64,000 nucleotides of DNA, taken from the NCBI GenBank assembly GCA_030710605.1, contig CP092879.1, positions 44,831,151-44,895,150 on the forward strand. Direction: 5' to 3'. Below the pieces are notes generated by a model. That model did no database searches. It saw only the letters and a program-made list of their open reading frames with translations, and was not told the origin of the DNA. The position numbers and the translations under genes are program-made. Positions 6,901 to 53,118 of this stretch are shown piece by piece. Origin of the DNA: Cordylochernes scorpioides (Eukaryota > Arthropoda > Arachnida > Pseudoscorpiones > Chernetidae). Every line of letters begins with the position of its first letter. The stretch's first letter is position 1.

Positions 6901-9900
6901 TGAGTCCCAAGAGAGGGCGCTATAGGCAGGTTTAACTGTATTTGGTAACCCAATTTCTTAATAAATTAAAGTCAACCAAGTACACGTTCGGGCTGTTGGC
7001 CCTTGTCAGCATGGTGCAGACTGTACCTCTAAGAAATATTTGGTCATGGAGGCTTCCTGAAAATTAGAAAAATGAGCATTTAAGGCAAACTAAGAAGAAT
7101 CCTCCTAGAGACTATGGTTTCAAGCTAATGGTCCTCTATAGCCCAGGGCGGACTTTTTTCCATGAGATCCACAAGGGATCTAATGGAATCTTCACAACCT
7201 ACCAAAGAGGTGTTTTGCTGGCAAGGTGGCTGGGCCAAATCTATAGCTAGAATATAGATGGAATTCATTATTAGATGTTTTCTGTTCCACATTACACACA
7301 CACACACACACATAGAAAGTTGATCTATTGAGGTATAATTATGCATGAGTGAAATGATTTTTTTTCAGGAATGTTTTTTTTTATAAGAATACTTCTATTG
7401 TACTTACAAGGTTGGAAAATATTGAGAGAATGTCTAGATAATTAGTCTTCTAGTTGTTGTGCCAGTTTAATCAACTATGGATAATTGTTGAGAGGACCTG
7501 GCTCATCAGTACTTAACCCTTCCAGTGGTTTCGTTAGCTTAATCATTACCGATCAGCCTAGTAATTTTATTTACTCGAATACCGAGAGCATGCTAATGCC
7601 CTATGTACGGATATTTATGTGTTTTTATTTTTTTATTTATAAAAATGATATATACATCCATGGACTAAACTTAAGGTAGCTGGTGTTGTGGCTTTGTCAC
7701 CGACCCAAGGCCGCTAGTTGCGGCGACAATCAATAGATGGCGTCAGGTTTTGACGTTTATTTTGACGGGAGAAGCGCCCTATGCTTCTCTATGGATCAAT
7801 TTCCTCCCGGCAAATTTTCCATCTATAAACTTTGGGTAGTTTCATATTTTGATATTTAATTTAACAACACAAAATCAACAAGTTAAAAGAGATATGGCGT
7901 AGGATGGCCTGTTGATTTTGTTAAAGGCAGGGAAGAATATGCGTTATATTTTGATGCCGCCTGTTGTCTGATCGTTTTTTTTTTTTTTTTTAGGAGACAG
8001 AGCCAATTTTGTTTACACTTGGTTATCTCATAGGTCTTCAATAAAGGTCAATGTGTATTATATATCTTTCAAACTTATTATCTGAATCCCAAAATACATG
8101 CTAAAATGTAAAATTTCCTTAAGTTTTGTCCATGAGTGTAAACAAGATATATAACATTGGGAAAAGCTTATTTAGTCAAGTTTAAAAGCAAGCTCTTTAT
8201 GAATATTTTGTAAAAGAAATTGAGACAAAACTTTGTAACTTTTGAAACATTAAGTGCTTATGTGACGTGTGGTGCAAACGCGTGGCGTGAAGCAATTCAA
8301 GCTTCTAATTATATACACGATTTTCTAATATCTATCCAAAGTGTGCTAAATGCGCCAAAATGACCATTTGGATGTGTATTTGAGAAATTGATTATCATAA
8401 TTAAAAGCTAGATTTCAAGAACTTATTCACCCTATGGAAGATAACAGTTAATCGCTGAAATATCGGGAAATAAACAACTCAAGGAAGTTTGATAAGTATT
8501 CATATCCTTTTTAACCCTTTGGCTGATGGATTAGCTATTCTATGTTGTTATCCAATGTCGATATCATAGGTATAGCCTGGTTCCAGGTGCCGACGTTACG
8601 CTTCAACACAGTTTTCCCAAACACATAAAGGCCTATATATCCAATAATTATTACGACCAAAGTCCATGGCAACTAGATACCAACACTTTTCCTCTGATCC
8701 CATCAAATTTAGTTGAAAGACAATTAAGATTGATCTTGAAGATTAAATGTTGGAGCTAAAACCACGGCCAAGCGTGTTATAGGCTCATATGGAAAAGTTT
8801 ATTAATCACAGACAACAACACAACAAAAATCTTTATTAAGACCTCCTTGTCTTATACAGGTTCTTCTAGAAGAAATGTAAGGTAAATGTAGGAATAACAG
8901 TAATAGTACCAGTAATCAGCAATGTTATTTACAGTGTATCAAATTAGAAAGAAAAAGGAAAGACTTAGCCAAAACATATATACAAGTAGTGTTGAGAACA
9001 AGCAGTTCTCTTTTATCAAAGAACAATCATTAGTAGAATTGACAGAAATTAACATAATTATCAGGAATCGTAATAATTGTATACATGAATGTGTGGATCA
9101 GGAGTAGAGGGTCGTCTAAAGCCGAAATATAAAGTTTTAGAGGTTAAATTTGTTCATTCCATTAATCACAGGCCTGTAGTCATCAGCGAAAACCCAAGCA
9201 GAAAATTATTTTGATAACAAAAACACAATGGAGATTATCAATGTTTTATAGTGTGTGTGCTGTATGTTTTTATATTTAAACGGTCGATGCGTTGTTTAAA
9301 AGTCAAAGTGTAGATTCTTTCTGTTGAATCCTTGTGAACAATATTGGAATCATTCTATTGAGATGGTTAGACAAAGAAATTTATAAAAGAGAATTCTTTC
9401 TCGTAGGGCTCTAAGTAATTTTCCTTGCAGATGTTTATCCTTATCCTTATAAATATATATAAATGAAATGCGAAATCGATGTTTGTTATCGCATCACGCA
9501 AAATCTACTGACTCAATCATTATGGAATTTCGCATGTAGTTAGCTGAAGATTTCGTTTAACATATAGGCTATTCAAAAAACTAAAAAAGTTAATGTGCTT
9601 TTTTTAAAAAATAAAAAACCAAAAAGCGTTAGTTCCAGTCTTTTATCGCTAGGGCGCAGCACTGGTCGCGACGATAAATGAATTTGATTTTTTTAAAGCA
9701 TCGGTGGTTCAGTGGTAGAATGCTCGCCTGCCACGCGGGCGGCCAGGGTTCGATTCCCGGCCGATGCATTTTTTTAAACAATTTTTAAAACTCATTTATA
9801 TTATATCTATATTAATAAAATGGAAATCTTCTATATAAATGGAAATTTCATAAGTGGTGTTCGCTAAAAACTTTCGTTACAATGCATCAATTTCGACCAA

Positions 9901-12900: not shown

Positions 12901-15900
12901 ATTTGAAGGTAAAAACCGAATTAAATGTTAACCAAAGGAGAAAAAGTCTTCTATTTTCAATTTTATATGCAGAGATTATTTTATATATAGAATATAGAAA
13001 AAATACCAATATAAATTTCTTGATGCGCTTGAAAAATAAGTTTGATACATACCTCCCCTCTAATTTTCACAAACCCTACACACGCGCACTGAACGGCATT
13101 AGAATAATAAAAATGTTTCATCAATATTTTAGGCTTTAAAATATGTGCTAAATAGTTGTTTATTAAAATTTTCTTCGTTCAAGATAATGTACCGTATCTT
13201 TATTCTGTGCAAAGCATTAGCCAGCTATGATATAGATTTTATGGATAGAAAGATGTGCTATTAAACGGAGAGAGATTCAAACGAGAATCTATCTACAGCG
13301 ATTTAGTAATGTCCACACAGCCCATATGCAAATAATAGTGTCGATTTAAATTTAGGCAGAACGTCGCTTGAGGACTCAAACATTCTGGAAAACCAAAGAC
13401 TGCATCTGACACTCTTAAAACAGAAATACACTAATGGACATAACTTAAGAAGGTGTACATTTTAGCATGTATATCGGGATTCAGACAATAACTCTGAAAG
13501 ATATTTGATACACAGTGAGCTTTATTGAAGACACACGAGATAACCAAGTGTGAACAAATTTGCGATATATAGTCGAAATTAGACTTTCCACTTCCTTAAT
13601 TTTGTCCATGAATGTATATGTTGGGGGTTATTGAAATAAATTGTTACCATTCATTACAAGTCCTATTATAAAATAAATAAAGCTTCCAGGTCTTAATTTC
13701 TTGTATAACTTTTTTATTTTCAAACTTTCGGACTTGTCAGTCTTTCAAAAGGAGTTTCACGTTAACAAATCAATAATAAATACTATTTTTATATTATTAT
13801 ACAAGTCATAGCAGATGCTGTTCATGTTTCTTAAGGCTTCTTAGCAAATATAATGAAAACGGAAAAAAACAAGCGACTGAGACTTCTATCTGCAGGAAAG
13901 ATGCTGATGCAGGACAATGCTAGACCTCACACAGATACAGTTACGATATTGCTTAGTTTGGATGGAAGTTTCTACCACATCCAACCTACTGTCTCGAATC
14001 AAGTCGCTGTGGCTACCACTTATTTGGGCCGTTGAAGATGATAATGTTAGGACGCCATATATATCGGATAATGGGATGAATGAATGAATTGGTTGCATTC
14101 ATAACCAAGATTTTTCTTTGAATTAAGTTTCAATCATACTGTTTGAAACATGTGATACTGTTAAGAACGATTTTATTTAATAAAATATATTTTCATATAC
14201 TTCTGTAATGTTATTAAACCTATTAACAGCACCAAATATAGCTATCTGTTTATGATAAAATTGTGAAAAACGTTTGAACATTTTTAAATTTACCTATAAT
14301 TTTTTTAAATTTCAGTTGTAAAAAAAAATTCACGCTGCGCGCGTATATTTGTGAAATTTATTGTAAGAAACAGTCCATGTTTTTATTAAGCCCGTTGAAG
14401 AGAGGGTTATCGTTTGAAAGCTTGCTTTAAAAAAAAAAAGAAACTCATTGTGAGAAAATATTTTTGTAGTTTTCAATAGCTCTCTGTGCTTCTCTGGACA
14501 GATTAACGATATAGAGCGTCATTTTGAACGAAATAATTTTGCATAAATATTTAATATCCGATAGACCTTCACTTTTAAAATAGAGATAAGATAATTATTG
14601 TTCTAATTCTGTTCTATGCATTTGCGAAGGGAATTTGGAAATTCTAGGTGCAATATATTAAAATTACTTCTTAACAAATATATGTAAAGTTGTCCTGGAA
14701 AATTCGCAATTGTTGAAATAGCTTATATTGCTATCTTTTCCTTTTAGATAACATCGAATTTCTCAATCACATTATCAACGTTCCAATGTTCTAGTAAACA
14801 AATCAGTTTGGGATAACCTGTAGACATTTTACAAACAGGAAGTTGTAAAATCTTGCATACCAAAGTCTTGTCTGCTATCCAATCAATGTTTTTTGCAAGA
14901 GCTATCGGAAAGTGATTGCCTGACCTTCATATGTCTGAGGTAATAATGATTTCCCCTTTTCTATCTAATTGGGAAGCGGATTGCATAAACGCTGGAGGCA
15001 AGGACAGCTTTCTGGAATACGGCGGGTAGAAAGATGGTTCTATATGAATGGATTCTAAAACCCTTCCTCTTCTTTAAAAGTGCATATACAATCTAAAATT
15101 CTCTTGAAAATCTTAATATAATTTGATGAGCATCAAAGTATATAATTGCATTAACATATCCGTCTGGGCTAAAAATGAGAATAATAAATAAAAACATATA
15201 ATGAAAATAAAATATTTCTATTAGATAATAAAAAGGCCTATATTGGTAAATAAATATTTTATTCAATCCAATATGTGCCTTTTTATTATATAACGATTCA
15301 AGTATGGATTGCTCAATTTTCAGAAATATCTCTATGTTTATCTTTATTTTCTGTCATTCAATATGTAAAACAAACGTCTATAGAACAAACAATAATCACC
15401 GATGGTATTTTGCGTTTAAATGTAACATATAAAACAGTATGAAAAAATAGTACAAATGTAACATTGTACTGGGATAAGGTGCATAAATTAAGAAAAAGGC
15501 ATCTCCTTATCGTGCAACTGAAAGTTGCTGATGGCTGGCGCCATCTATCGGAATAAATATCAACTATTCTCGTTGATTTTTAATTATTCCAGAATTTGCC
15601 AAATAACCATTCTTGATTAATCAAGAAAAGCTAACCACGGACGCGTTTCGGGCTGTTGGCCCTCATCAGCGTGGTGCAAGCTGTACCTCAACGACCAAAA
15701 ATTGGTCATTAAGGCATCCTGAAAAATCATGAAACGGGTAGTTAAGGCCAGAATTGCGTGAGGACGCTACACAATGTGAAAAAATAGTACAAATGTAACA
15801 TTGTACTGGGATAAGGTGCATAAATTAAGAAAAAGGCATCTCCTTATCGTGCAACTGAAAGTTGCTGATGGCTGGCGCCATCTATCGGAATAAATATCAA

Positions 15901-18900
15901 CTATTCTCGTTGATTTTTAATTATTCCAGAATTGGCCAAATACCCATTCTTGATTAATCAAGAAAATTATCCAAGAGAAATATCCCAGTACAATGTTACA
16001 TTTGTACTATTTTTTCACATTGTGTAGCGTCCTCACGCAATTCTGGCCTTAACTACCCGTTTCATGATTTTTCAGGATGCCTTAATGACCAATTTTTGGT
16101 CGTTGAGGTACAGCTTGCACCACGCTGATGAGGGCCAACAGCCCGAAACGCGTCCGTGGTTAGCTTTTCTTGATTAATCAAGAATGGGTATTTGGCCAAT
16201 TCTGGAATAATTAAAAATCAACGAGAATAGTTGATATTTATTCCGATAGATGGCGCCAGCCATCAGCAACTTTCAGTTGCACGATAAGGAGATGCCTTTT
16301 TCTTAATTTATGCACCTTATCCCAGTACAATGTTACATTTGTACTATTTTTTCACATTGTGTAGCGTCCTCACGCAATTCTGGCCTTAACTACCCGTTTC
16401 ATGATTTTTCAGGATGCCTTAATGACCAATTTTTGGTCGTTGAGGTACAGCTTGCACCACGCTGATGAGGGCCAACAGCCCGAAACGCGTCCGTGGTTAG
16501 CTTTTCTTGATTAATCAAGAATGGGTATTTGGCCAATTCTGGAATAATTAAAAATCAACGAGAATAGTTGATATTTATTCCGATAGATGGCGCCAGCCAT
16601 CAGCAACTTTCAGTTGCACGATAAGGAGATGCCTTTTTCTTAATTTATGCACCTTATCCCAGTACAATGTTAAATTTGTACTATTTTTCACATTGTGTAG
16701 CGTCCTCACGCAATTCTGGCCTTAACTACCCGTTTCATGATTTTTCAGGATGCCTTAATGACCAATTTTTGGTCGTTGAGGTACAGCTTGCACCACGCTG
16801 ATGAGGGCCAACAGCCCGAAACGCGTCCGTGGTTAGCTTTTCTTGATTAATCAAGAATGGGTATTTGGCCAATTCTGGAATAATTAAAAATCAACGAGAA
16901 TAGTTGATATTTATTCCGATAGATGGCGCCAGCCATCAGCAACTTTCAGTTGCACGATAAGGAGATGCCTTTTTCTTAATAAAACAGTATGTAGCTTTAA
17001 TTATAGGTACTTGAGTATGTTGAAGAACAGTTATGCCAGAAAGCTTGTGTGAATAATTACTGAAAAAAAAAACGCCTCCCCTAGGTCTACTCGTTTTAGC
17101 GTACAGTTTAATATATTAAAAACAAATAAGGTCAATCCTGACCACTAACAAGGGCGTTTTTTATGGAGTTTAATATATAGATAGAATATTTGCCGGAAGG
17201 GGGGATATTGATCTATAAAAATAAAGGTCACATTTGCCGTCAAAGCTATACGCCATCTATTGACTGTCGCCGCAAACTAGCGGCCTCGGGTTCGATGACA
17301 AAGCCACAACTCCAGTCTTGGTAAACCGAGAAGCGTCCACCTGAAGACCATGGTTTCAGTCTAATGGTCCTACTCAGTCTAAGGCGGACTTTATTCCATG
17401 AGATCCATATTAGACCATGATCTGTTGTAGTGGAAGAGGATGGTGAGAGAAGAATGACGTTATTGCGACCTGCATGAGTGGAGATTCCACTCCGAAACTG
17501 TGTTGGAACAGAAACCATGAGTTATTCATGGTAATCAAGACGATATTTTTAAATGATAGGAGGGGGGATACACTTTTATCTCTCCCCTTCTCTCTAAAAC
17601 TAATTAAAAAAAAACAATTATTTTATAAAAATTCTAAATTAACGAATTGAATTTCGTTAAACAGGATACAGATATACTTTATACATTTTTCTATTAAATT
17701 GATACAGTTCAGAAAAAAATAAAAATATATAACAATTAATTTTTAATTATTTTTATCTATGCACGATCGTGTCGTAATTTTTTCCAGTACATGTAGAGTA
17801 GAAAGAAGAGTTTAACAGTAGTCTGTCGCTCTATCTTCATACAGTTTTCACAAAGATGCCTCTCACATGCTCTATATCTGGCTTTTTGGCAGTCATATCA
17901 TTGAATTTTAAATATAAATGTCACCTCTCTGATATAAACTATATTCCAGTCTCTTTAAAGTTTTTTTTTTTTCATTTAGGCTGCAGTTGAAGATATTCAG
18001 AAGCCAGTTCTCTTCTATGGGGGGTAGATTTTTAATCATGATTCCATGTATATCATCAGGTCAAGAGAAAAACTCTTAAAAACACCTTCTGGAGATTTAG
18101 CAACCCACTGAAGACGCTGAGAACTATTTCAGAAAAGAATAATATAGCAATAGAACTCTATAATTTCTGATGATCAATTGTAAATAGATTTATACACAAA
18201 AGAGGAAGTGAGGAAAGTTTTAGAACAGATGTGTAAATCATTCCTTTTCAAACAAAGGCTCACGTTCACATGGGGAAAGGGAGAAAAATAAATACTGTAT
18301 TATTTTGTTGTTGTATGGCGAATCCATACAGGGCAATGGGCCCTAATAAAACCCTTTTTGTTGTTGTTTTGTTGTTGTTGTATATCATCAGGTCCACTTA
18401 CTTTGTTTATATTAATTATTTTTATTGCATCAGAGAGTTCTTTCTGGGTGAAAGGGCTATGGAGACTTGGTTTGGTACTCTTTTTTTTTTTGAGATTTTG
18501 AAATTTTGGGGTAAGTTTGAGATATTTTACTTATTTTCTTATCGGTGGCTGGGTTCATTTCAAGCTTATTGAATTTTGAAAAGTATTCTACAAAGGAATT
18601 AGCTTTCTCAATATCTGTTCTCATGATTCTGTGTTCTGTTTGGAATGTATTAGTATATTGTTTTGCTTATCCCTAGTACACGTGGTACAGGCCATTATAT
18701 TCATGATGGGTAGAAGTAGGCGACTGCTTTTACTGTAAGTGTACCACATGTCTACACATATGAAAAGCAGTTCGACTTTGTACTTACAAATGTGCTAGAG
18801 CCCCGTTTAGTTACCTGCACTCGCTGGTAAGGTTGGACTTTTGCAAGAATCGGGGGTCATTGGATCATTTTTTTAAATCAGAAAAAAGTGCCCAATGCGG

Positions 18901-23966: not shown

Positions 23967-24109
23967 CTAAAAGTTGCTGATGGCTGCGTTATCTGTCGAA
24001 ATAAACATTAACTAATCGTTTATTTTCAAATATTAAAATATTAGAGAATAATTGAAATATCAACGGTTAGTTTTTCTGACAGATGACGCAAGCCATCAGC
24101 AACTTTTAG
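23967..24109. repeat. Inverted repeat at the left boundary of duplication copy 2
   Basis: CTAAAAGTTGCTGATGGCTG at 23967 is the inverted complement of the arm ending at 24109 (about 32 bp, few mismatches), around an AT-rich loop. The arm sequence is related to the GTTGCTGATGGCTGGCGCCA segment of the 337-bp retrozyme unit. The window's first bases are the end of the same right arm upstream of copy 1. Confidence 0.75.
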
Positions 24110-25422
24110 TTGCATGATCAGGATATACATCAATTCGATAAAATAATCCCTTGAATCAATATTAAAGCAAGAACATTAAGCCTCCAGGGAAAGTTTCTTT
24201 TAAAAATAATATTTTTTTCTCCCGTATAAGGACTTTCTTGCCCGAAAGCTTTAGAGATTTTCAAATAAAAAATATTTTTAAAAGAAACTTTTCCCTGGTT
24301 ACTTGATGTTCTTGTTTCAATATACATTAATCTTAATTTATCAGGTAAATCCCTGTACAATTTCACTTTTGTACTATTTTATATTAAAGGATTAGTTTCC
24401 TTGAAAATATTGACTTTGCGAGGGTTGCAGAAATGTCGGAAATAAAGTAAAAGAAAGGTTTAAAAGTGGATCATAACTCTTATATAATTATAGCTGGTAT
24501 TTTAGATTGATTTCATAATGGTATTCCTTTTTGTGTTCTCTCTCAAAACTATCATAAAGATTAAGTTTAAAAATTTATTTTTCATATTAGTTTTTTTTTT
24601 CAATATCTTCAAGTACCATTCAAAGATTAATAGTAGTTTACAAACTATCTAGATTAATAATTCCATTAAAATTTTTATTCTCAAATTTTTAGAAAGTTAA
24701 TTTGAAAAAGGCAAATGTTGTCTCTATTGCGTATATAGAGGTTTTTTTTTTCTCTCTAACAACAAGTCATGTTTTCGACGCAAAATTCACCAAATTCATT
24801 ACACCTGTAGAAGAATAAAGATGTTCGAAAACTTATGTTAACAAAACTCAAAATAAAGAACCTCTTCACTTTTAAGTTGTTCTTCTTGATTTTTAAATAG
24901 ATTATCGCACCAACACACTTGGTTATAATAAAGGGGATACGTTTTATTTTCTTTTAATGAGTATTTTCACATTTCCTATTATAGGATGACTTTCAAATGG
25001 AATTGTAAAAATGCTACGAGTGTTTCTCGATGATGATCCAGGCTCTCCAAATATATCCCCCCCCCCCCCCCATAGCTCAGAAAATATACTTGGAAGTATC
25101 TCTGAATATCTTTGCAGAGAGAAATAGGATCAAATTAAAATCAGTGTTGACATCTTTGCAACCATAATTTTTCAAAAAGGCGAAATATTAAAAAATAATA
25201 TTTAGTAAACAATATAGTGGTGTTCAAATTTAAGTGAAAGAACTATGTAGATATTTTAGACACGTTATTTATTACAAATTATGAAATTTGGCTCCAAAAA
25301 TTGTTTATTCTATAGGTATTTATTATGGCTTTAGGGATTAAATATGATAATGAAAAATTATTTTTATTGTTTCAACATTATACAGACAAAATGAAGCAGC
25401 GTCGCTCAAAGCAATAGAGAGG

Positions 25423-25650
25423 TGAATAAGGACCATGGTCACCTCTAACAGCTTTCAAAACGAGCATTTATTCTGACTAAAAGATTTTAAAGAAATTTCT
25501 GAGGCATTAAATCCCATTCCTAACAAAGAATGAAAAAAATGAAAAAGGACCACGGTCACATCTAACAGCTATCAAAACGAAGCATTCATTCTGATTAGAA
25601 GGTTTTTGAGAAATTCTGAGGCATTAAGTCCCATTCCTAACAAAGAATTA
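25423..25650. repeat. Tandem repeat, unit about 119 bp, two units
   Basis: Copy-2 counterpart of the three-unit repeat at 1319-1676. One unit was lost here or gained in copy 1 after duplication. Confidence 0.8.
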
Positions 25651-25666
25651 GATAATATAAAAAAAA

Positions 25667-26364
25667 AGTTTAAGACTCCGTAACTCTTTTTATTAATTGT
25701 ATAAAGAAATTTTCAGGCAAGCTCTTCCTCAGCAAACGAAAAAATAAAAAAGGTATGGAGAGAGATTATATAGCATTTTAAAGATATATCACAATGTTCA
25801 TCAACCTTTTCATAGTTTGTTCTTCAAATTTTTAAATTATGTCTTCTTCTTTCTTATCTTCACTCAATCATATTAGGGTACCAAGCTTGTAAAGCTTGAT
25901 ATTTGAAAACCATCATTACAGGGTGAAGTAGAATGCTTCTGCCTTTGTCATTAAGACTGAGAGCACTACTCAGTAGCAGGCCGACTTAGCTCCAAAAGAA
26001 ATGGCTGCCTCTGACATGAGGAACAGACGCCATGTACAGCCGCTCCTTACATGGAGTACAAACGCTGCTCATCCTGTATCCCTGGATTAGGAGCCCTTAC
26101 AGGGTACTATCAGCCGGGTCAGCTGACCCCAGGTTTTTTAGTGAGCTTGTTACTGCTCCCCCTCCTCCTGTTTCATCCGGGCTTGGGACCGGCAAAGGCG
26201 GAGTTTTTAATTATGTAAATTCCTGAATTTTTATGTTCTATATTTGCATATATATCTTTGAAAATGCTATATAATCTCTCCATTACCTTTTTAATGTTGC
26301 TGAGGAAGAGCTTGTCCGAAAGCTACTTTATACAATTAATAAAAAGCGTTGAGAGACTTATACC
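25667..26364. mobile_element. Non-autonomous element with long terminal inverted repeats (copy 2)
   Basis: Duplicate of the element at 1684-2390, with the same inverted arms and a small deletion just before the right arm (about 26295). Confidence 0.6.
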
Positions 26365-26399
26365 TTTGTTGTAAATTATTGAAATCCGAAAACCTGTGA

Positions 26400-27232
26400 T
26401 AATGAAAGTAGATATTAGATCAATGCGGCTTCTGGAAGGGGGATGTTGAGCCCCAATGCCTGAGACATCCCAGACATGTTCAACTGGATTCATGTCCTGA
26501 GATCTGGATGGCTAATCCATCCTCTGCATATTCTCGCTCTCGAAGAGATCATTGGTTAGCACTTATCTATGTAGACGACTATTATCATCCATAAAAATAA
26601 ACTGGGGGCCAATGATAACCCTGGAAAATCTCGCATATGGCTCAATATCCTCGTTATATATTTCTTAAGCATCAAGGGCCAATTTATGCAAACGATAGAT
26701 ACCCAGAAATATTCGAAAAGGAAAAATTAGGTGGCAAAAAATTATTTATTTTGAGGTGTTGCTAGCTTTCAAGTAAAAACCTGCTCTTCAACGGGCAAAT
26801 ACAAATTAAAAGAGAGATGTTATTAGACGTGGATAAGGCTATTTCTTAATCAGTCAATATGCTTCTCTCAAACACGAGGATAAATGTTTGTTCGAAGTGA
26901 AACCGGCCCATACTATGATACCTCCTCCTCCAAAACGGTCACTCTCTTGTATGTACTTGGCTCTCCACAGATGAGGACTCGTCGAGATTCAGAATCTAGA
27001 CTGGAAAATAGAATTGTCTCTAAATATGGGCCACTGATCCTGAATTCAGGCGGACATTTAAGAGGGCTTTCCTGTGGAAGGGGTGAGATGAAACATGTAA
27101 TTAGTCTTCTTGCAAAAATATCATTCTCCTGCGGCCTTCGAAAAGTGGATTGTCTTGAAACTGTCGCTCTAAAGTCACATGACAGCTCATTGGAGGGCCT
27201 ATTGAGTTTAGCAGTCAGATAGTGGTCTTCTT
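26400..27232 (-). pseudogene. Tc1-family transposase relic (copy 2)
   Basis: Duplicate of the relic at 2420-3260, with the same catalytic-core remnants and the same kind of stops. It was already broken before the segmental duplication. Confidence 0.75.
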
Positions 27233-27305
27233 GGTTCGTGGTGGATCATATAAAGAGATTTAAACACTGTTTCAAGTATATTATTGTATTTTAAAAATAT
27301 TTTAA

Positions 27306-27545
27306 ATCTTTCAAAGTGGAAACATCAAGTCTCTAGGGACAAGTCTCTTTCTAATTTTTTTTTAAATTCACAAATCTCTCTAGCTTTCGAGCATGGAAGC
27401 CCCTCTATGGGAGATTTTTATTGTATTGTGTTTTTCTCCTGTAGAGGGGCTCCCATGACCGAGAGCTAAAGAACTTTTTGAATAAAAAATTTATAAAGAG
27501 ACTTGTTTCTGGAGACTTGATGTTTCCACTTTGATATTGAAACAA
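27306..27545. repeat. Foldback element (copy 2)
   Basis: Duplicate of 3327-3553. It retains the left arm and a longer loop (CTCCTGTAGAGGGGCTCC is present here but missing in copy 1), so this copy is the more complete one. Confidence 0.65.
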
Positions 27546-27825
27546 GGGATTGTGTGTTTTATCGAATTTTATTTCTTTCTTGAAAAAAAAAACTGAAATT
27601 GTCAACAATGTAATTTCGATCATTGGCCAATTTTCAGCTAGCAAAAAAATTTCAAAAATTTCCTTGTAGAATGATAGTTTTTAGAAAAACTACCCCTTCG
27701 CCGCAGCCTTCAATTTTGTACAATGGTTAAATATTATCTTTCAACATCTGTTATCTAAAAAAAAAAAATTATTTTTTTACAAATGGCGATCTCGCGTTAT
27801 GAACCAAAAGATTGGCAGAGCCGAA

Positions 27826-27889
27826 GGTTGCCACGTGACCGGCGAATGTTTAAAACGTCTTGCCGCCGGTCGTTTGGCAATATTTCGAG
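27826..27889 (+). promoter_or_regulatory. Candidate proximal promoter/5' UTR with E-box and inverted repeat (copy 2)
   Basis: Copy-2 version, with CACGTG at 27832-27837 and the GACCGGCG/CGCCGGTC inverted repeat just downstream. No difference from copy 1 was seen over this stretch, so both copies may be transcribed. Confidence 0.45.
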
Positions 27890-27926
27890 ATGGCGGGAAC
27901 TACACTGATCGTCTGCCTTTTTCTTG
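27890..27926 (+). CDS. Exon 1 (signal peptide start), copy 2
   Basis: Same 37 nt as copy 1, with donor GTGAGT at 27927, phase 1. Confidence 0.85.
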
Positions 27927-30900
27927 GTGAGTCGTCTGCACGCAATTAACTTTCTACAATTTTTAAAATTTATTTATTTCTAACTTTTCAAACTTTCATT
28001 TTAAATTGTTTTATATAATTTTCAGCAATAGTATTGTTTTTTTTTTTTTCTTTATAAAATTTGTTTGCCACTCATTGCCATCTCTCTCCTATTCCATTAG
28101 TCACTCACAAATACGTGCTATATATTCCTAAAAGACGCCTCCTCCTTTTGAAAATGCACCAAAGCAATGGATTTATTTTTATCTTCTGAGTACACATTGG
28201 TTTGGGTCAATAAATATGTCATGACAACATCTTTCGACAAATTTGGGAAAGTAGTGAACTTGTACATCAAGGCTTCGGGTTGTGGCCATTATCAGTACAT
28301 GAGCTGCTTCAATTTTATGACATCGTACGGGAAAATTCATGAAATTTTCCAGATGGTATCCTGGGCGTTTAGTTCTAATTCGTTTCACACAGAAATATCA
28401 TAAAAATGTATTTTAAACGGGATAGAAAATTGCTATTTTCGAACCAGAATATCTTCCTCTATTCGGGTTTAGCCATAATCAGTACATGAACTGTTTCAAT
28501 TTGATGACATTGTACAGAAAAAGTCATGAAATTTGCCAAATGGTATCCTGGGCGTTTAGTTTGAATTCGTTTCGCACAGAGAAGATCATATAAATGGTAG
28601 TGAGGAAAGTTTTAGAACAGATATGTAAATAAATTCCTTTCAAACAAAGGCTAATTTGCACATGGGGAAAGGAAGGAAAAATTACTGTATTATTTTGTTG
28701 TTTGTATGGCTAATCCATACAGGGCAATGGGCCCTAATAAAAGCCTTGTTATTGTTGTTGTAGATCATATAAATGCAGTTTTGAACGAGCTAGAGAGTTG
28801 CTCTCTTTAAACCAGAATACCATCCTCCTACAATATATTCTTCATTTTTACAAATTAATAATAATAGTTTTACTTAAAAAGGCTATATATTGTATTTTTG
28901 TCTTTTGTTTTCAAATGTGTTCTAAATTCTAAATATCTAGCAGGCATATACCTTAAATGTGGTATAAGAATGTGTTCATACTATCTCTACATAATTATTA
29001 AAAGTTGCAATTCCAAAATTTTAACCGAAATTTATTGAATTTGACCAGATAGTTAACTAGATATTAAATCATATCGCAAGACAATCCTATCAATCCTATG
29101 AAACGTCCCTATGATAAATTCCAGCTATTTGTATTTTCATCTTTGAGGTATAAATCCAAAGGATTATATATTAAGGAGAATGACCCAGAATTTTTGAAAC
29201 GGCACAAGCAGTTGGAATCTCCACGGATCAATAAAAAAGATGTTTAAGATGGTAAACCATCTATTCTAATTATTTTCATTGTATTTAAGAACACTAAGAT
29301 GTGTTTGGGGAGGTCGGTGGAAGGGTGATCTAAACCGTTGGTTTTCGACTGCTACGACCCGGGATCGAATCCCGCATTAGGCACTTTTTTCTGATAAAAA
29401 AATGCTTCATTGGCCCCACGATTCTTGCAAAAGACCAACCCCACCAGCGATTGCAAGTAATCAAATTGAAATCTGCACATTTTTTAAGTGCAAAAGTAAA
29501 ATTCCTTTTCACATGTGTAGACATGTAGTGTACTTACAGTAAAAGCAGTTGCCAACTTCTACACACCATAATTATCATGATCTGTACCAAATGTACTTGG
29601 AATAATAGAAAAATATGTGTTTTTATTCTAAAAGACAAATTCATGCTTTAACAGTTTAATATATTCAGTATTCAGATTTCCTTAATGATTCCTTAGAAAG
29701 TTCAATGGTAAGTTAAAATTTTAAAGATTTATTTCTTTTTTTTTTGTAGGGACATATTTAGATTGACACAATTCCGTGTACTTGAATTCTTCATTCTAAT
29801 TCTTTTTTCTTTACATTCATTCTTTAACAGTTTAATAACTTCAGTATTCCGATTTCCTTAATGATTATTAATAGAAATTTCAATGGTAACTTGAAAATTT
29901 GAAGATTTCTTTCTTTTTGTAAGGATATATTTGAATTAACAATTCCGTGTACTTGAATTATTCAATCTACCTCTTGTTGAAAAATCCCGAACCTAAAATC
30001 TTGGCAACATGCCATCCCTTAATGTTGATATTTTAAACGTGAATTTTACACAAAAACTTGTGTGTTCAACTCTTTCGTAATACCTGACATTTTTAGGAAC
30101 GTGCTTTACATTTAAATGTCGTTTTTCTTCTGGTATTTGTTCCATAAAGGTGACAAAATAAAATTTAAACGACTTTTTTTTTCTGTGAAAATTGTAAAAT
30201 TAGAACCTCTTATTTTTTCTAAAAAAATATTCAATGAAAAATTGATCTTTATTATATTGTGTACATTGGATTATTTATTAAAATAATTTGTGAAGATTCC
30301 ATTAGAATTGGTGTGGATCTCATGGAATAAAGTTCGTTCCGGGCTGACAAGCGTCATAGCCTGAAACCATGGTCTCCAGGTGTACGCTTCTCAGTTTGCC
30401 AAAGCTGGTGTTGTGGCTTTGTCAACGACTCGAGTTCACTAGTTTGCGGCGACGGTCAATTGATGGGGTCTATTTTGACGGGAGATTCCTTTTTATAGAA
30501 TTGTGTTTGTCATTCAGAACAAATAATTCTATGTCTTAAATGCGATTTGATTTTGGATTCTGTGTAGGTGTTCTATTAAGAATCGACCATAATCAAAACG
30601 TATTCCTCCGTTGGTGAAATTGACGCCATGTTTCACAATTTACTGAATAAACAATATTACTTTTAATGACGTCTTCTCCTCGCAATTAGGCCCAATAATT
30701 TGATCAATTATCACGCACTTGAATTTTTTATCTTCTATTTGGTTAATGATTGGAAATTTTATTCTGATAATTCTCCTATAATAAGTTAAATTGAACATTT
30801 ATACATTATTATATGTGAATAAATAAGATAAAATATAAACTTGTGTTGATATTAAAAACACAAAAATAGCATATCCTGACAGCCTGAATGAACATTTTTA

Positions 30901-33900
30901 GATGGCAGAGCGCAATCTAGTGAAATATAATCAACTAAACGTTGATTTAACTTGTTCCATGATACAGTTAAACCTGTCTATAGCGCCCCCTCTAAATAGC
31001 GCCTCCCTCTCTATAGCGCCCGATTTTAAATACGTAGTGCGATGCAATTTACATTAAAAGTGACCTGTCTATAGCACCCCCTCTCTATAGCACCCTATTT
31101 TGGCGAGTCCCAAGAGAGGGCGCTATAGGCAGGTTTAACTGCATTTGGTAACCCATTTTCTTAATAAAGTCAACCAAGTACACGTTCGGGCTGTTGGCCC
31201 TTGTCAGCATGGTGCAGACTGTACCTCTAAGAAATATTTGATCATGGAGGCTTCCTGAAAAATAAAAAATGGAATTCAAAGCAAACTGAGAAGCATCCAC
31301 CTAGAGACCATGGTTTCAAGCTAATGGTCCTCTTTAGCCCAGGGCGGACTTTTTTCCATGAGATCCACAAGGGATCTAATGGAATCTTCACAACCTACCA
31401 AAGAGGTGTTTTGCTGGAAAGGTGGCTGGGCCAAATCTATGGCTAGAATATAGATGGAATTCATTATTAGATGTTTTCTGTTCCACATTACACACGCACA
31501 CACACATAGAAAGTTGATCTATTGAGGTATAATTATGCATGAGTGGAATGATTTTTTCAGGAATGTTTTTTTTTTTTATAAGAATACTTCTATTGTACTT
31601 ACAAGGTTGGAAAATATTGAGAGAAGGTCTAGATAATTAGTCTTCCAGTGATTGTGCCATTTTAATCAACTATGGTAATTGTTGAGAGGGCCTGGCTCAT
31701 CAGTACTTAACCCTCCAGTTGTTTCGTTAGTTTAATAATTACCGATGAGCCTAAGTAATTTGATTTACTCGAATACCGAGAGCATGCTAATGCCCTATGT
31801 AAGTATATTTATGTTTTTATTTGTTTATTTATAAAAATGATATACATCCATGGACTAAACTTAAGGTAGCTGGTGTTGTGGCTTTGTCACCGACCCAAGG
31901 CCGCTAGTTGCGGCGACAATCAATAGATGGCGTCAGGTTTTGACGTTTATTTTGACGGGAGAGGCGCCCTATGCTTCTCTATGGATCAATTTCCTCCCGG
32001 CAAATTTTCCATCTATAAACTTTGGGTAGTTTCATATTTTGATATTTAATTTAACAACACAAAATCAACAAGTTAAAAGAGATATGGCCTAGGATGGCCT
32101 GTTGATTTTGTTAAATCATAAAGGCAGGGAAGAATATGCGTTATATTTTGATGCCGCCGGTTGTCTGTTTGTTTTTTTAAAGGAGACAGAGGCAATTTTG
32201 TTCACACCTGGTTATCTCATAGGTCTTCAATAAAGGTCAATGTGTATCAAATATATTTCAGACTTATTATCTGAATCCTGATATACATTCTAAAAAGTAC
32301 AATTTCTTAAGTTTTGTTCATGAGTGTAAACAAGATATATAACATTGGGAAAGCCTATTCAGTCAAATTTAAAGGAAATCTCTTTATAAATATTTTGTAA
32401 AAGAAATTAAGACAGAACTTTGTAACTTTTGAAACATTAAGTGCTTAAGTGACGCGTGGTGCAAACGCGTGGCGTAAAACAATTCTAGCTTCTAATTATA
32501 TACACGATTTTCTAATATCTATCCAAAGTGCTAAATGCGCCAAAATGACCCTTTGGATGTATTTGAGAAAATGATGTATATAATTGGAAGATAAATTTCA
32601 AGAACTTATTCACCCTATGGGAGATAACAGTTAGTCACTGAAACATCGGGAAATAAATAACTCAAAAAAGGTTGATGCGTATGCATATCCATTTTCGCCT
32701 TTTGGCTGATGGTTTAGCTATTCTATGTTGTTATCCAATGTCGATATCATAGGTATAGCCTGGTTCCAGGTACCGACGTTACGCTTCAACACAGTTTTCC
32801 CAAACACATAAAGGCCTATATATCCAATAATTATTACAACCAAAGTCCATGGCAACTAGATACCAACACTTTTCCGCTGATCCCATCAAATTTAGTTGAA
32901 AGACAATTAAGATTAATCTTGAAGATTAAATGTTGGAGATAAAACCACGGCCAAGCGTGTTATAGGCTCATACGGAAAAGTTTATTAATCACAGACAACA
33001 ACACAACAAAAATCTTTATTAAGACCTCCTGGTCTTATACAAGTTCGTATAGAAGAAATGTAAGGTAAATGTAGGAATAACAGTAATAGAACCAGTAATC
33101 AGCAATGTTATTTACAGTGTATCAAATTAGAAAGAAAAAGGAAAGACTTAGCCAAAACATATACACAAGTAGTGTCGAGAACAAGCAGTTCTTTTATCAA
33201 AGAACAATAATTAGTAGAATTGACAGAAATTAACATAATTATCAGGAATCGTAATAATTGTATACATGAATGTGTGGATCAGGAGTAAAGGGTCGTCTAA
33301 AGCCGAAATATAAAGTTTTAGGGGTTAAATTTGTTCATTCCATTAATCACGTGTAGTCATCAGCGAAAACCCAGGCAGAAAAGTATTTTGATAACAAAAA
33401 CACTATGGAGATTATCAATGTTTTATAGTGTGTGTGCTGTATGTGTTTTTATATTTAAACGGTCGATGCGTTGTTTAAAAGTCAAAGTGTAGATTCTTTC
33501 TGTTGAATCCTTGTGAACAATATTGGAATCATTCTATTGAGATGGTTAGACAAAGAAATTTATAAAAGAGAATTCTTTCTCGTAGGGCTCTAAGTAATTT
33601 TCCTTGCAGATGTTTATAAATTATAATTTATCAGAAAAAAACGACTTTTACTGGATCTTTACAGCGTAGTAACGGGAGACATCTAGAGATTTTAGAAAAT
33701 TGGGAATATCGTGATGTAAGTTAGATCAGAGATTTGTTGTTAGTAAATTAATTTAGATATCATTTATATACGTGATTCAGCATCACAAGGGAACAGATAC
33801 AAATTTAAAATGACTATAAACATCATTTCAAAGGAAACAACTTGTTACTATAATTTACAAGTTTGTTTACTTGTACAGAAATACTTGAACAGAATAATTT

Positions 33901-36900
33901 ACGCTACCTTACTTACACAAATTTGAGTTACACAGTTTTGTTTATTTTTCTTGTCATCCGTTATTTTGAATGTTTCACTTGTTGTGATATGTTTATGGTG
34001 TCTTTGAGGTAAACTCTACAACCAGGATGTACCATTGTGATTGATAATAAGGAAGATATTTTCATGTCCAAAGAGAGAGAGAGCATAACTCCCGTATACA
34101 CATTCAATCTAAATCTTTAAAGAAAGATAATCTTCTATATTTCGCTATAGAATTCAATATCGTTCTGAAAGCAATCCATATTTAAATCTTTAGATAATAA
34201 AATGTATATATTGTTGGAATATTAGACAGAGTAACAATGGCTATAGATGAGCTCGTGTTTGAAAAGGAACTTGTATGTGTATTGTAACAAAGTATGTATT
34301 ATTTTATTAGCAGAGTATTATTGTTTATTTAATATTTTGCTATAATCTGTACACTTCCCTCTTTTGCTTATCTTTTGTTTATCACTCATAGTTTGCTCTA
34401 GCCTGAAATAAATTGTTGACTTATCTCCAAGTTGGTCTTCCCTAATTTTTCACGTGGCGATATAATATTTATTGTTTTTGTTGTTGCCATGTATAAACAT
34501 ATACCAAGATTTATTTTGTATAATTGCTATTAATAATAAATAATATGTAAAGTTGAATTGGTTACTGATTCATCCTTCTTACTTACTTGAATTACATAAC
34601 ATATATTGGATTGAATTAAAGATTTGTTTTAATAGATAACTTACATATATTTTTACTTTCATCTATTTAATGAAATATTTGATGAATTATATTTTATGTA
34701 CTTAATATACAAATATTTTAAAATATAGGATAGATATTATTTTTCTCCTTTAAAAATTATAAGATATTTAACTTATTCTGATTGTAATTTTTTATAATAT
34801 TTTTTTCATGCACAAATTTCTCCCCACCTCTTTTGTATTTTTTTTTTAATATTTCAACTGTAAAATTATAACACAATGCGGTGCTGAGTTTGTTTATATA
34901 AAAATGTAAGGCCTTGATAAAGGTTGGCGTTCAGCCAACCGATGTATTGCTAAACAAATCTTTTATTTAATCCAATATATGCCTTTTTGTAGAACGACAT
35001 TTGAAAATTATCCCGCATCTGTTTCTCAGGAATTCTCATCCCTGGATACTTTATTTTTCCGTTTATCATTACTCTTCACAATTCATCCTTTCATACTTCA
35101 TCCCTAAGGTTAGAAATAATCGTTATTTCTCCTTAAAATAAATTTAGATTTTTCGTTCAAAAGAAACACATGCGGGATAATTTTCAAATATCGTTCTACA
35201 ATCATAAGTCGCATTATATTGTATTATAAATATGCCTTTTTATAATCTAAAGAGTTTTCAATATATTTAACCAAACGTGTTGTTCCCAAGAACACTAATG
35301 AGATATTCGTCTAGCTGTCACGCTAGTGAGAAGGTTGACTAATGATTGACAGTCGGGTGAGGAAATACCGATGTCCAATTATCTTTGTCCCTTTCCTGGT
35401 AGTTTGTATTGTTAAGGTAAAATACATAAATAAGGCAATTTTGGATATGATTCAGAATATTTTATCTATGTGCTGGTACATGTTTGCCTTTATATACAGT
35501 CATATTCTCCTTATACATTCTATTTGATAAAGATATTCCTTTTTTTGTAAAATCAAATATCGTTCAAGATTCTTAAAATAATTGCAAAGGTTTAAACACG
35601 ATATTAGACACACATGTACAACTTTATAAAGACCACCGGTCTTATACAGATTCACAACAGGAAGGAAACATAGATGGAGCTCCTATACTCCAGGCAGCGC
35701 AGAGCCCAACAGCCTCCAGATCTGTCACATGTCCAGTGGCCACAGAATCCACCGTACATAGGTTAGCGTATTTTTCCTTTTTAATATTGATAATCGACGT
35801 ATATTTATTCCTTGTTTTAACATATTCTGAACGGTCTAAATCCTTGTTCGATTTAGTTTATTTTGCCAGAATTTCTTCCATGGTATTTTTCGCTATGTAG
35901 CAATCATAATCAAACCAAGGGTTCAACATTGGGTTAAATACGATATATCAACCAGGATGTTTGAAAAAGATATCTTTATTAAGATAAAATACCAAGCTTT
36001 CAAGCGTTAGCTTATCACCAGGCCTTATGTGTGTAGTGTTTGTACTGATTATAATTCATAGAATGAATGTTTGTCTTGAACTTCTGTTTGCAGTACTTCT
36101 CTATTTACAAATAAATGTTTATACTCAAAAAATGCAATGTATCAAATAATATCTTCAATATTTACATTATTAACAACAATTATCATAGCATTAAATTTCA
36201 AAAGACGCCAAAATTGGCCTATTTGAAGGTAAAAACCGAATTAAATGTTAACCAAAGGAGAAAAATTCTTCTATTTTCAATTTTATATGCAGAGATTATT
36301 TTATATATAGAATATAGAAAAAATACCAATATAAATTTCTTGATGCGCTTGAAAAATAAGTTTGATACATACCTCCCCTCTAATTTTCACAAACCCTACA
36401 CACGCGCACTGAACGGCATTAGAATAATAAAAATGTTTCATCAATATTTTAGGCTTTAAAATATGTGCTAAATAGTTGTTTATTCAAATTTTCTTCGTTC
36501 AAGATAATGTACCGTATCTTTATTCTGTGCAAAGCATTAGCCAGCTATGATATAGATTTTATGGATAGAAAGATGTGCTATTAAACGGAGAGAGATTCAA
36601 ACGAGAATATCTACAGCGATTTAGTAATGTCCACACAGCCCATATGCAAATAATAGTGTCGATTTAAATTTAGGCAGAACGTCGCTTGAGGACTCAAACA
36701 TTCTGGAAAACCAAAGACTGCATCTGACACTCTTAAAACAGAAATACACTAATGGACATAACTTAGGAAGGTGTACATTTTAGCATGTATATCGGGATTC
36801 AGACAATAACTCTGAAATATATTTGATACACAGTGAGCTTTATTGAAGACACACGAGATAACCAAGTGTGAACAAATTTGCGATATATAGTCGAAATTAG

Positions 36901-38103
36901 ACTTTCCACTTCCTTAATTTTGTCCATGAATGTATATGTTGGGGGTTATTGAAAGAAATTGTTACAATTCATTACAAGTCCTATTATAAAATAAATAAAG
37001 CTTCCAGGTCTTAATTTCTTGTATAACTTTTTTATTTTCAAACTTTCGGACTTGTCAGTCTTTCAAAAGGAGTTTTACGTTAACAAATTAATAATAAATA
37101 CTATTTTTATACTATTATACAAGTCATAGCAGATGCTGTTCATGTTTCTTAAGGCTTCTTAGCAAATATAATGAAAACGGAACAAAACAAGCGACTGAGA
37201 CTTCTATCTTCAGGAAAGGTGCTGATGCAGGACAATGCTAGACCTCACACAGATACAGTTACGATATTGCTTAGTTTGGATGGAAGTTTCTACCACATCC
37301 AACCTACTGTCTCGAATCAAGTCGCTGTGGCTACCACTTATTTGGGCAGTTGAAGATGATAATGTTAGGAAGCCATTGATATCGGATAATGGGATGAATG
37401 AATGAATTGGTTGCATTCATAACCAAGATTTTTCTTTGAATTAAGTCTCAATCAGACTGTTTGAAACATGTGATACTGTTAAGAACGATTTTATTTAATA
37501 AAATATACTTTCATATACTTCTGTGATGTTATTAAACCTATTAACAGAACCAAATATAGCTATATGTTTATGATAAAATTGTGAAAAACGTTTGAACATT
37601 TTAAAATTTACCTATATATATTTTTTAAATTTCAGTTGTAAAAAAAAAAAAAAAATTGACGCTGCGCGCGTATATTTGTGAAATTTCTTGTAAGAAACAG
37701 TCCATGTTTTTATTAAGCCCGTTGAAGAGAGAGCGTTATCGTTTGAAAGCTTGCTTTAAAAAAAAAAAGAAACCTCATTGTGAGAAAATATTTTTGTAGT
37801 TTTCAATAGCTCTCTGTGCTTCTCTGGACAGATTAACGATATAGAGCGTCATTTTGAACGAAATAATTTTGCATAAATATTTAATATCCGATAGACCTTC
37901 ACTTTTAAAATAGAGATAAGATCATTATTGTTCTAATTCTGTTCTACGCATTTGCGAAGGGAATTTGGAAATTCTAGGTGCAATATATTAAAATTACTTC
38001 TTAACAAATATATTTACATATACGAGACAAGGTCTATATGTAAAGTTGTCCTGGAAAATTCGCAATTGTTGAAATAGCTTATATTGCTATCTTTTCCTTT
38101 TAG

Positions 38104-38135
<32 letters not shown>

Positions 38136-41100
38136 GCATCGAGAATTTCTCAATCACATTATCAACGTTCCAATGTTCTAGTAAACAAATCAGTTTGGGA
38201 TAACCTATAGACATTTTACAAACAGGAAGTTGTAAAATCTTGCATACCAAAGTCTTGTCTGCTATCCAATCAATGTTTTTTGCAAGAGCTATCGGAAAGT
38301 GATTGCCTGACCTTCATATGTCTGAGGTAATAATGATTTCCCCTTTTCTATCTAATTGGGAAGCGGATTGCATAAACGCTGGAGGCAAGGACAGCTTTCT
38401 GGAATACGGCGGGTAGAAAGATGGTTCTATATGAATGGATTCTAAAATTCTCTTGAAAATCTTAATATAATTTGATGAGCATCAAAGTATATAATTGCAT
38501 TAACATATCCGTCTGGGCTAAAAATGAGAATAATAAATAAAAACATATAATGAAAATAAAATATTTCTATTAGATAATAAAAAGGCCTATATTGGTAAAT
38601 AAATATTTTATTCAATCCAATATGTGCCTTTTTATTATATAACGATTCAAGTATGGATTGCTCAATTTTCAGAAATATCTCTATGTTTATCTTTATTTTC
38701 TGTCATTCAATATGTAAAACAAACGTCTATAGAACAAACAATAATCACCGATGGTATTTTGCGTTTAAATGTAACATATAAAACAGTATGTAGCTTTAAT
38801 TATAGGTACTTGAGTATGTTGAAGAACAGTTATGCCAGAAAGCTTGTGTGAATAATTACTGGAAAAAAAAAAACGCCTCCCCTAGGTCTACTCGTTTTAG
38901 CGTACAGTTTAATATATTAAAAACAAATAAGGTCAATCCTGACCACTAACAAGGGCGTTTTTTTATGGAGTTTAATATATAGATAGAATATTTGCCGGAA
39001 GGGGATATTGAGCTATAAAAATAAAGGTCACATTTGCCGTCAAAGCTATACGCCATCTATTGACTGTCGCCGCAAACTAGCGGCCTCGGGTTCGATGACA
39101 AAGCCACAACTCCAGTCTTGGTAAACTGAGAAGCGTCTACCTGAAGACCATGGTTTCAGTCTAATGGTCCTACTCAGTCTAAGGCGGACTTTATTCCATG
39201 AGATCCATATTAGACCATGATCTGTTGTAGTGGAAGAGGATGGTGAGAGAAGAATGACGTTATTGCGACCTGCATGAGTGGAGATTCCACTCCGAAACTG
39301 TGTTGGAACAGAAACCATGAGTTATTCATGGTAATCAAGACGATATTTTTAAATGATAGGAGGGATATACATTTTTATCTCTCCCCCTCTCTCTAAAACT
39401 AATTTTAAAAAAACAATTATTTTATAAAAATTCTAAATTAACGAATTGAATTTCGTTAAACAGGATACAGATATACTTTATACATTTTTCAATTAAATTG
39501 ATACAGTTCAGAAAAAATAAAAATATATAACAATTAAGTTTTCATTATTTTTATCTATGCACGATCGTATCGTATTTTTTTTCCAGTACATGTAGAGTAG
39601 AAAAAAGAGTTTAACAGTAGTCTGTCGCTCTATCTTCATACAGATTTCACAAAGATGCCTATCACATACTCTATATCTGGCTTTTTGGCAGTCATATCAT
39701 TGAATTTTAAATATAAATGTCACTTCTCTGATATAAACTATATTCCAGTCTCTTTAAAGTTTTTTTTTTTTCATTTAGGCTGCAGTTGAAGATATTCAGA
39801 AGCCAGTTCTCTTCTATGGGGTGTAAATTTTTAATCATGATTCCATGTATATCATCAGGTCAAGAGAAAAACTCTTAAAAACACCTTCTGGAGATTTAGC
39901 AACCCACTGAAGACGCTGAGAACTATTTCAGAAAAGAATAATATAGCAATAGAACTCTATAATTTCTGATGATCAATTGTAAATAGATTTATACACAAAA
40001 GAGGAAGTGAGGAAAGTTTTAGAACAGATGTGTAAATCATTCCTTTTCAAACAAAGGCTCACGTTCACATGGGGAAAGGGAGAAAAATAAATACTGTATT
40101 ATTTTGTTGTTGTATGGCGAATCCATACAGGGCAATGGGCCCTAATAAAACCCTTTTTGTTGTTTTTTTTTGTTGTTGTTGTATATCATCAGGTCCACTT
40201 ACTTTGTTTATATTAATTATTTTTATTGCATCAGAGAGTTCTTTCTGGGTGAAAGGGCTATGGAGACTTGGTTTGGTACTCTTTTTTTTTTTTGAGATTT
40301 TGAAATTTTGGGGTAAGTTTGAGATATTTTACTTATTTTCTTATCGGTGGCTGGGTTCATTTCAAGCTTATTGAATTTTGAAAAGTATTCTACAAAGGAA
40401 TTAGCTTTCTCAATATCTGTTCTCATGATTCTGTGTTCTGTTTGGAATGTATTAGTATATTGTTTTGCTTATCCCTAGTACACGTGGTACAGGCCATTAT
40501 AATCATGATGGGTAGAAGTAGGCGACTGCTTTTACTGTAAGTGTACCACATGTCTACACATATGAAAAGCAGTTCGACTTCGTACTTACAAATGTGCTAG
40601 AGCCCCGTTTAGTTACCTGCACTCGCTGGTAAGGTTGGACTTTTGCAAGAATCGGGGATCATTGGATCATTTTTTTAAATCAGAAAAAAGTGCCCAATGC
40701 GGGAATCGAACCCGAGTCGTAGCGGTCGAAAACCAACGGTTTAGACCATCCTTCCATCGACCCCCTTCTCACATGTATTATTAATATAAGTATATTAATT
40801 AAACAAGTCAATAAGTCTCCGGAGATGAGTTTCTTTTTATTGCCAACTCTAGCTTTCGTAGTCCTTCTACAGGAGTACAGGTATATCACACCATTAGATA
40901 ACTGTTATACTTTTATATATACATATGTTTTGGCCGGAATTTTTGCATATTGGAATTTATTGAGCTGATTATTATTTGCATATTACTTGTTGTTTATTAT
41001 ATCTTGAGTGTTCGATTATTGGTTGAATTAGTATATGTGAATAGGTTTATGAATGCTTGCTGTATCCAGATATACTTGTACATTCTGCTTTGAATAATTG

Positions 41101-52988: not shown

Positions 52989-53118
52989 TACATATATACG
53001 GGTATCTTTCTTAAATCCTTAAAGAAGTGTATGAATAAAACATTTATACTAATTCCCCATCTTAAAATTGTCTTGTTTTTTATTGAATTATATCAACATT
53101 ACAAAAATAATAAATAAA

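Follow-up and report, generated by a model that had tools for sequence, protein, structure and literature searches.

A retrozyme insert carrying four hammerhead ribozymes was analysed within a window (the whole stretch of DNA studied, 64,000 nucleotides) of the pseudoscorpion Cordylochernes scorpioides (assembly GCA_030710605.1, contig CP092879.1, positions 44,831,151 to 44,895,150, forward strand), together with its relatives in the same genome. A sequence-only reading of the window had proposed a retrozyme array in both orientations at 15441-16980. The array was confirmed as a minus arm and a plus arm of 337-bp units and the location was correct, but the exact limits were refined to 15442-16979 (~1.5 kb). 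The left arm (15442-15966, minus strand) comprises 1.56 units and runs from unit position 185 to ~37, with the 3' end termed A (..UUUUUUC(A)) outermost; it is followed by 14 bp of filler (15967-15980), for which no second exact match was found within the window. The right arm (15981-16979, plus strand) comprises 2.97 units and runs from unit position 1, the origin of numbering at 15981, to 326, with the 3' end termed B (..CCUUUUUCUUAA) outermost. The claimed exact 337-bp repeat held for the period, but the plus-arm spacings are 337 and then 336 because the third unit is short of one T. Each arm contributes three pieces of unit, and over ~1.5 kb these six show only four differences (three substitutions and the missing base). 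The unit has a GC content of 0.41 and a tandem period of 337 bp, and the longest open frame in the tandem units is 52 residues, so that the unit is without coding capacity; neither reverse transcriptase (RT) nor GIY-YIG coding was found in it. The hammerheads, each covering the core with stems I and II, lie at 15634-15675 (minus) and, in plus-arm units 1, 2 and 3, at 16119-16160, 16456-16497 and 16792-16833 (plus).

The insert is flanked by the target duplication TAAAACAGTATG at 15430-15441 and 16980-16991. Its length, given earlier as 10-12 bp, is better stated as 10-13 bp, varying with the assignment of edge bases common to both; the final TG of the left copy could also belong to the element. 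The insert lies in the first copy of a direct duplication of ~20 kb (window 1-22000 vs 24100-43600, copies ~92-100% alike where compared), the flanks of the insert being 92% and 98% identical between the copies by gapped alignment. The other copy lacks the insert and retains an uninterrupted target site with a single TAAAACAGTATG at 38779-38790. The clean empty site reported earlier was thus found again and, with the target duplication, bears out the claim that the insert moved as one piece; the empty site also suggests that insertion happened after the block was duplicated. Two further copies of the family occur in the window: a single arm at 49773-49963 (minus strand, unit 188 to 40, A end) and a diverged mini-insert at 53110-53226, made of a minus arm (unit 298-331, B) and a plus arm (unit 293-35, A), of which a stricter-threshold scan detected only the plus arm.

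The four hammerheads with intact cores, one on the minus and three on the plus strand, were found as predicted and are identical motifs, with CUGAUGA, a 4-bp stem II (GGGC/GCCC), GAAA, GUC and a 6-bp stem I (ACCACG/CGUGGU) to which an outer AGC/GCU helix may be added. The sequence CGCGUC after GAAA reduces stem III to one A-U pair closed by a CGCG loop, so that the earlier description of the ribozymes as complete was right for the core and for stems I and II, but generous for stem III. A structural hammerhead scan gave one match in 300 Markov windows used as a control, and the pattern CTGATGAN{4,34}GAAA matched the window seven times against 1.7 expected, four of the seven being the motifs above. 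No hammerhead was matched in the window by Rfam at gathering thresholds; with an E-value threshold, all four motifs matched RF02275 (HH9) with 26.5 bits (E 7.5e-4), under the gathering score of 52. The hammerhead fold was predicted at −14.7 kcal/mol for the monomer and −37.1 kcal/mol for a dimer sharing ACGCGU, and is the minimum in neither case, the overall minimum folds being −18.2 and −42.2 kcal/mol, respectively; single-strand folding of the hammerhead region was uninformative (z −0.04).

Among nine relatives, helix cells were paired in 85.5% of cases, compared with 31-51% when the partners were slid. Eight cells were altered on both sides (shuffle mean 4.3, with 6/500 shuffles as high), mostly through two changes common to several relatives, and neither the number of pairs changed on both sides (287/500 shuffles as high) nor the number of pair types (428/500) exceeded the shuffles. 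The exact 30-nt ribozyme core was counted 9,777 times (4,936 + 4,841 by strand) in the 2.62 Gb and 24 contigs of the genome. A sister core, with stem II altered on both sides to GCGC/GCGC, was counted 8,040 times (3,981 + 4,059), and the reversed-pattern controls gave 0 in both searches; the two variants together provide ~17,800 exact cores. The sister subfamily (L055 26-396, L040 1622-1815 and L014 1-51) is 73-77% identical to the main one in its longer copies. The exact cores and the covariation of stem II suggest that the ribozyme has been kept by the family; recent amplification alone could also account for the exact core copies. Among the first 100 places listed for the main core, opposite-strand neighbours within 1.5 kb were arranged minus-then-plus in eight cases and plus-then-minus in one, and among the first 100 for the sister core the corresponding numbers were eight and none. 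The plus-then-minus neighbour at L070 was considered as a tail-to-tail insert and rejected, since this complex copy consists of three pieces. GTDB genomes and IMG/VR, scanned for exact patterns, gave no relatives, as expected for an animal element.

The anatomy of insertion was studied in the window, in 35 loci from a search with the unit (115 matches among the best 40 of 836 first-look candidates scored) and in loci L044-L069. The ends of the retrozyme were taken from 36 loci, 35 of which form a biased sample, as they were found through holding a near-full unit. The matches formed 58 groups, 29 of them head-to-head, none tail-to-tail and 29 in one orientation. Because head-to-head groups number 29 and tail-to-tail groups 0, the two orientations are read as a signature of insertion; the sequence-only reading was right about both orientations, but its head-to-tail plus inverted units are better described as one head-to-head product than as independent units. 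The outer 3' ends form two clusters, A at unit 33-43 (..UUUUUUC(A)) and B at unit 319-331 (..UUUUUCUUAA), which lie ~46-48 nt from each other round the unit. The head-to-head groups included 13 with A on the left and B on the right, seven with the reverse arrangement, one A/A and no B/B; hence, where both ends could be classed, 20/21 inserts carried one A and one B (P 1e-5 if ends were independent). The flanks of L017 and L018 suggest a single insertion that was copied by an inverted duplication; with these two counted once, 19/20 inserts were mixed (P = 21/2^20, ~2e-5, under free choice of ends). The mini-insert at 53110-53226 (B/A) was left out of this tally, as was L030, probably a further B/A insert split by a later insertion. 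The one-orientation groups, which include some diverged pieces and two pairs that are copies within the duplicated block, had 11 B, 10 A and eight other 3' ends. The smallest forms of the retrozyme (window 53110-53226, L047 1001-1135 and L034 4119-4229) are diverged, ~110-135 bp long and ribozyme-free, and hold the B and A ends alone, joined head-to-head.

A string shared across the two ends reached at least 8 bp in 29/38 groups and at least 10 bp in 24/38, the latter compared with 16% of 1,406 mismatched end pairs; with pure TA runs excluded, the values for at least 10 bp were 20/38 and 9%, respectively. Mismatched pairs often reach 10 bp because many of the sites are TATATA-like, and single cases of short duplication prove little. 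For the majority of clean inserts, however, a flanking duplication is present, ~8-14 bp long outside microsatellites.

The length of the arms ranged from 0.1 to 6 units, and those as long as 6.0 units require a template that is circular or multimeric. Across 72 full units, mean divergence was 0.67% for units of the same arm, 0.74% for units in opposite arms of an insert and 2.58% for units of different inserts, and the low divergence between arms indicates that both were copied from one RNA type. This RNA would be circular or multimeric, and the sequence does not decide between the two. As a circle, the unit is predicted to be highly self-paired (minimum free energy −112.9 kcal/mol, z −4.4 vs 100 Markov shuffles); the circular fold leaves the A and B stretches unpaired, and in a local fold of this region the B stretch is partly paired. 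The 5' ends of the arms were considered to arise usually by run-off where the ribozyme cuts (unit 174), but this is not the rule, since only 3/66 starts fell at 172-180, with 1.8 expected from an even spread.

The sequence-only reading had suggested looking for a Penelope-like element (PLE) sharing the ends of the retrozyme. PLEs were found in the same genome with the same layout of ends and a hammerhead-like motif, but without significant shared sequence in the one PLE 3' region compared. A genome search for GIY-YIG gave 17,015 first-look candidates, 150 of which were scored (146 matches), and among the 146 matches listed 11 close opposite-strand pairs were read, all 11 minus-then-plus. At L054, an RT frame (RVT_1, E 3.7e-8) accompanies GIY-YIG frames. 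The ends were examined in all 11 pairs, four fetched whole and seven as outer parts. Two pairs were uninformative, L058/L059 with arms exceeding the fetch and L068/L069 with one arm disrupted, and all nine informative pairs had one short arm end and one long (tailed) end. The tail adds 29-36 nt in seven insertions of the main family and ~50 nt in L053. In a second family, distinct in its 3' region (L060/L061, C3:60213200-60217900), it adds ~25 nt; this insertion is probably recent, as its arms are identical over 651 bp. A target string of 9-14 bp was shared in 7/9 informative pairs; it was indeterminable in L055, which lies in a TA microsatellite, and in L056/L057, which lies in a repeated flank. 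In the main PLE family, the hammerhead-like motif CTGACGAGGACAAAAGCTTTTTGTCGAAACGTC or near variants of it lie upstream of the ends. Two apparent links between the elements were rejected: a 63-70-nt match beside GIY-YIG at L047, taken as a PLE sharing the retrozyme end, was read instead as a separate diverged B/A mini-insert, and a stretch of 17 nt in which PLE loci agree with the A site was dismissed, being antisense to GIY-YIG coding sequence.

PLE machinery is proposed because retrozyme and PLE insertions share their anatomy in one genome, and the sequences thus favour, with a probability of about 0.82, a non-autonomous metazoan retrozyme inserted by that machinery. Tandem units would be transcribed, and the hammerheads, probably acting as dimers with the self-complementary ACGCGU as shared stem III, would cleave them directly after GUC; the unit RNAs would be ligated into 337-nt circles. 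The RT/GIY-YIG endonuclease of a PLE would then make staggered cuts, ~9-14 nt apart, in the two strands of AT-rich DNA, and the freed 3' ends would serve as primers for copying the retrozyme RNA, with A as the start for one strand and B for its partner. Both cDNAs would travel round the RNA, from a fraction of a lap to six laps, before being joined head-to-head, with the gaps filled and a target duplication left. The stages from priming to joining explain the anatomy of the product, which resembles that of the PLE insertions of the same genome; the earlier stages, namely transcription, cleavage and ligation, as well as the enzyme that cuts, the circular template and a PLE protein acting in trans, are what we infer. 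A more specific version, in which PLE insertion is a coupled two-strand reaction of a dimeric enzyme on one RNA (a circle in the case of the retrozyme), with each start site dedicated to one cut strand, both cDNAs going round the RNA up to their joining and full inserts carrying one short and one tailed arm, is held at about even odds.

Several observations weigh against insertion by PLE machinery from paired start sites. At least one end was neither A nor B in 8/29 head-to-head groups, L026 is A/A and lacks a clear target duplication, 29 groups show a single orientation, and fewer than 8 bp were common to both ends in 9/38 groups. No significant sequence was common to the retrozyme unit and the one PLE 3' region compared, where nothing better than 8-mers and a single match of 13 nt appeared (E no lower than 5.4), and the spacing of the ends is unlike, being 46-48 nt in the retrozyme and mostly 29-36 nt in PLEs (~50 nt in L053 and ~25 nt in the second family). 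A stem-loop common to the start sites was considered and rejected, as the local fold of lowest energy in the retrozyme lacks this stem; by eye, the candidate at L047 shows a compensatory change. Finally, the start sites of a purified anole PLE in vitro seem alike for top and bottom strands (PMC11167929), and the pairing of one end of each kind is therefore not yet explained by anole PLE biochemistry.

The most serious of the alternatives, which is nonetheless unlikely, is that PLE enzymes move copies by using multimeric transcripts that have not been cut, and that insertion requires neither circle nor ribozyme. A multimeric RNA explains arms of several units as well as a circle does, and hammerhead cleavage is not necessary for the anole PLE in vitro (PMC11167929). 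However, the double-sided change in stem II of the sister variant and the exact cores of both variants suggest that the ribozyme has been kept. Most arms read through the cut site, yet a circle explains read-through equally well.

Mobilisation by a long interspersed nuclear element (LINE) through target-primed reverse transcription, with the inverted arm as a product of twin priming, appears improbable. Twin priming yields an inverted 5' segment inside a single target duplication, so that the general layout of the inserts would also be expected from it, but it should fix one outer end only. The pattern of one fixed and one variable end was not found here, as A and B are both fixed in 20/29 head-to-head groups and the two outer ends differ in 20 of the 21 with both classed. 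In addition, no poly-A or other LINE-like tail was evident in the insert flanks inspected, and the PLEs of the same genome display the same end pattern as the retrozyme. In favour of a LINE, PMC4918200 likens the 15-bp target duplications found with retrozyme repeats in Nematostella to those of LINEs.

An ordinary satellite that multiplied through unequal exchange or extrachromosomal circles, with the hammerhead present by descent only, would account for the near-identical tandem units but is very improbable. It is refuted for the duplication-flanked dispersed copies, which are short and end at fixed unit positions, and for one of which an empty site exists. An assembly artefact, which had been named as a possible refutation and to which inverted repeats are prone, is hardly credible for the class, and the structure is no artefact of this locus alone, given thousands of copies with fixed ends, recurrence at many sites with site-specific target duplications and the clean empty site in the duplicated block.

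If the coupled two-strand version is correct, the retrozyme would be a natural substrate of PLE machinery stripped down to two start sites and a circle-making ribozyme. The enzyme that moves animal retrozymes has so far been a guess, and the shared anatomy gives a structural argument for PLEs that a single purified protein would suffice to test. The Penelope tail, described as optional, was present on exactly one arm in 9/9 informative insertions here, which is a strong constraint on PLE integration, and the ribozyme cores in two variants constitute a large natural data set for its study. The partnership of PLEs and retrozymes has been proposed in print, and in the available text of the open-licence literature searched no demonstration of it and no report of such a pairing in retrozymes were found; the same literature gave no paper on pseudoscorpion hammerheads. 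The retrozyme appears to be a new family of a known class, the new part being the structural evidence for PLE insertion with one start site per strand.

Other features of the window include a Ty3-type pol (57207-60467), which matches C. scorpioides proteins best, at 90-97% identity over part of their length for the closest, a Mos1-type mariner transposase frame (53570-54595, minus strand), a DDE_1 transposase fragment (46630-47034, minus strand), which we take to be Tigger/Jerky-like, and a 47-bp minisatellite of ~16 copies (44276-45040). Two Rfam tRNA matches (9698-9768 and 49258-49328) look like the glycine type, and visual inspection of L047 showed this tRNA-like sequence again at ~600-700, shortened in its 3' part; these sequences are possibly a family resembling short interspersed nuclear elements.

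Comparison with known systems supports the assignment to the animal (metazoan) retrozymes without long terminal repeats (LTRs) and with type I hammerheads, the class named by the sequence-only reading. Plant LTR retrozymes (PMC4918200) are likewise non-autonomous, with a hammerhead and a circular RNA model, but they differ in having type III ribozymes, LTRs, a 4-bp target duplication and Ty3-type machinery. Metazoan retrozymes were defined by Cervera and de la Pena (2020, PMC7229834), who named LINEs and PLEs as candidate drivers and called autonomous PLEs "a strong candidate" for mobilisation. The present element agrees with them in its type I hammerhead within a tandem repeat of a few hundred bp, its GC content (below 50%), its unit length (within ~150-450 bp), the lack of a visible LTR, a target duplication longer than 4 bp and a highly self-paired predicted RNA, and differs in its head-to-head inserts with paired fixed outer ends, which are not described in the available text of that paper. 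Arachnid retrozymes are not new, since a tick retrozyme RNA (Argas monolakensis) appears in a figure legend of PMC4918200. Helix III is typically longer in invertebrates (PMC7229834) and weak in many cases (review PMC7761336). A matching description is that of the axolotl HHR_Amex1 (~330 bp, PMC7229834), which shares the unit length, the single-pair helix III, the palindromic tetraloop and predicted dimeric cleavage, and whose monomer cleaves poorly and dimers much better; the newt and axolotl satellite-type retrozymes belong to a different host phylum, and the likeness rests on descriptions, not on sequence comparison. Unlike PLEs, the retrozyme unit encodes no protein, and its stem I carries an outer helix where PLEs have a minimal ribozyme. 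In PLEs, copies are mostly head-to-head, the inverted pLTRs optionally carry a tail on one of them, and target duplications of 8-10 bp occur in some copies and none in others (PMC3846280), while the purified anole PLE cuts and extends both target strands, with cDNA starting at two adjacent internal sites (PMC11167929). The retrozyme resembles the PLEs of these two papers in its head-to-head arms, the tail on one arm, the short AT-rich target duplication, the start of reverse transcription inside the RNA and the hammerhead in the repeat.

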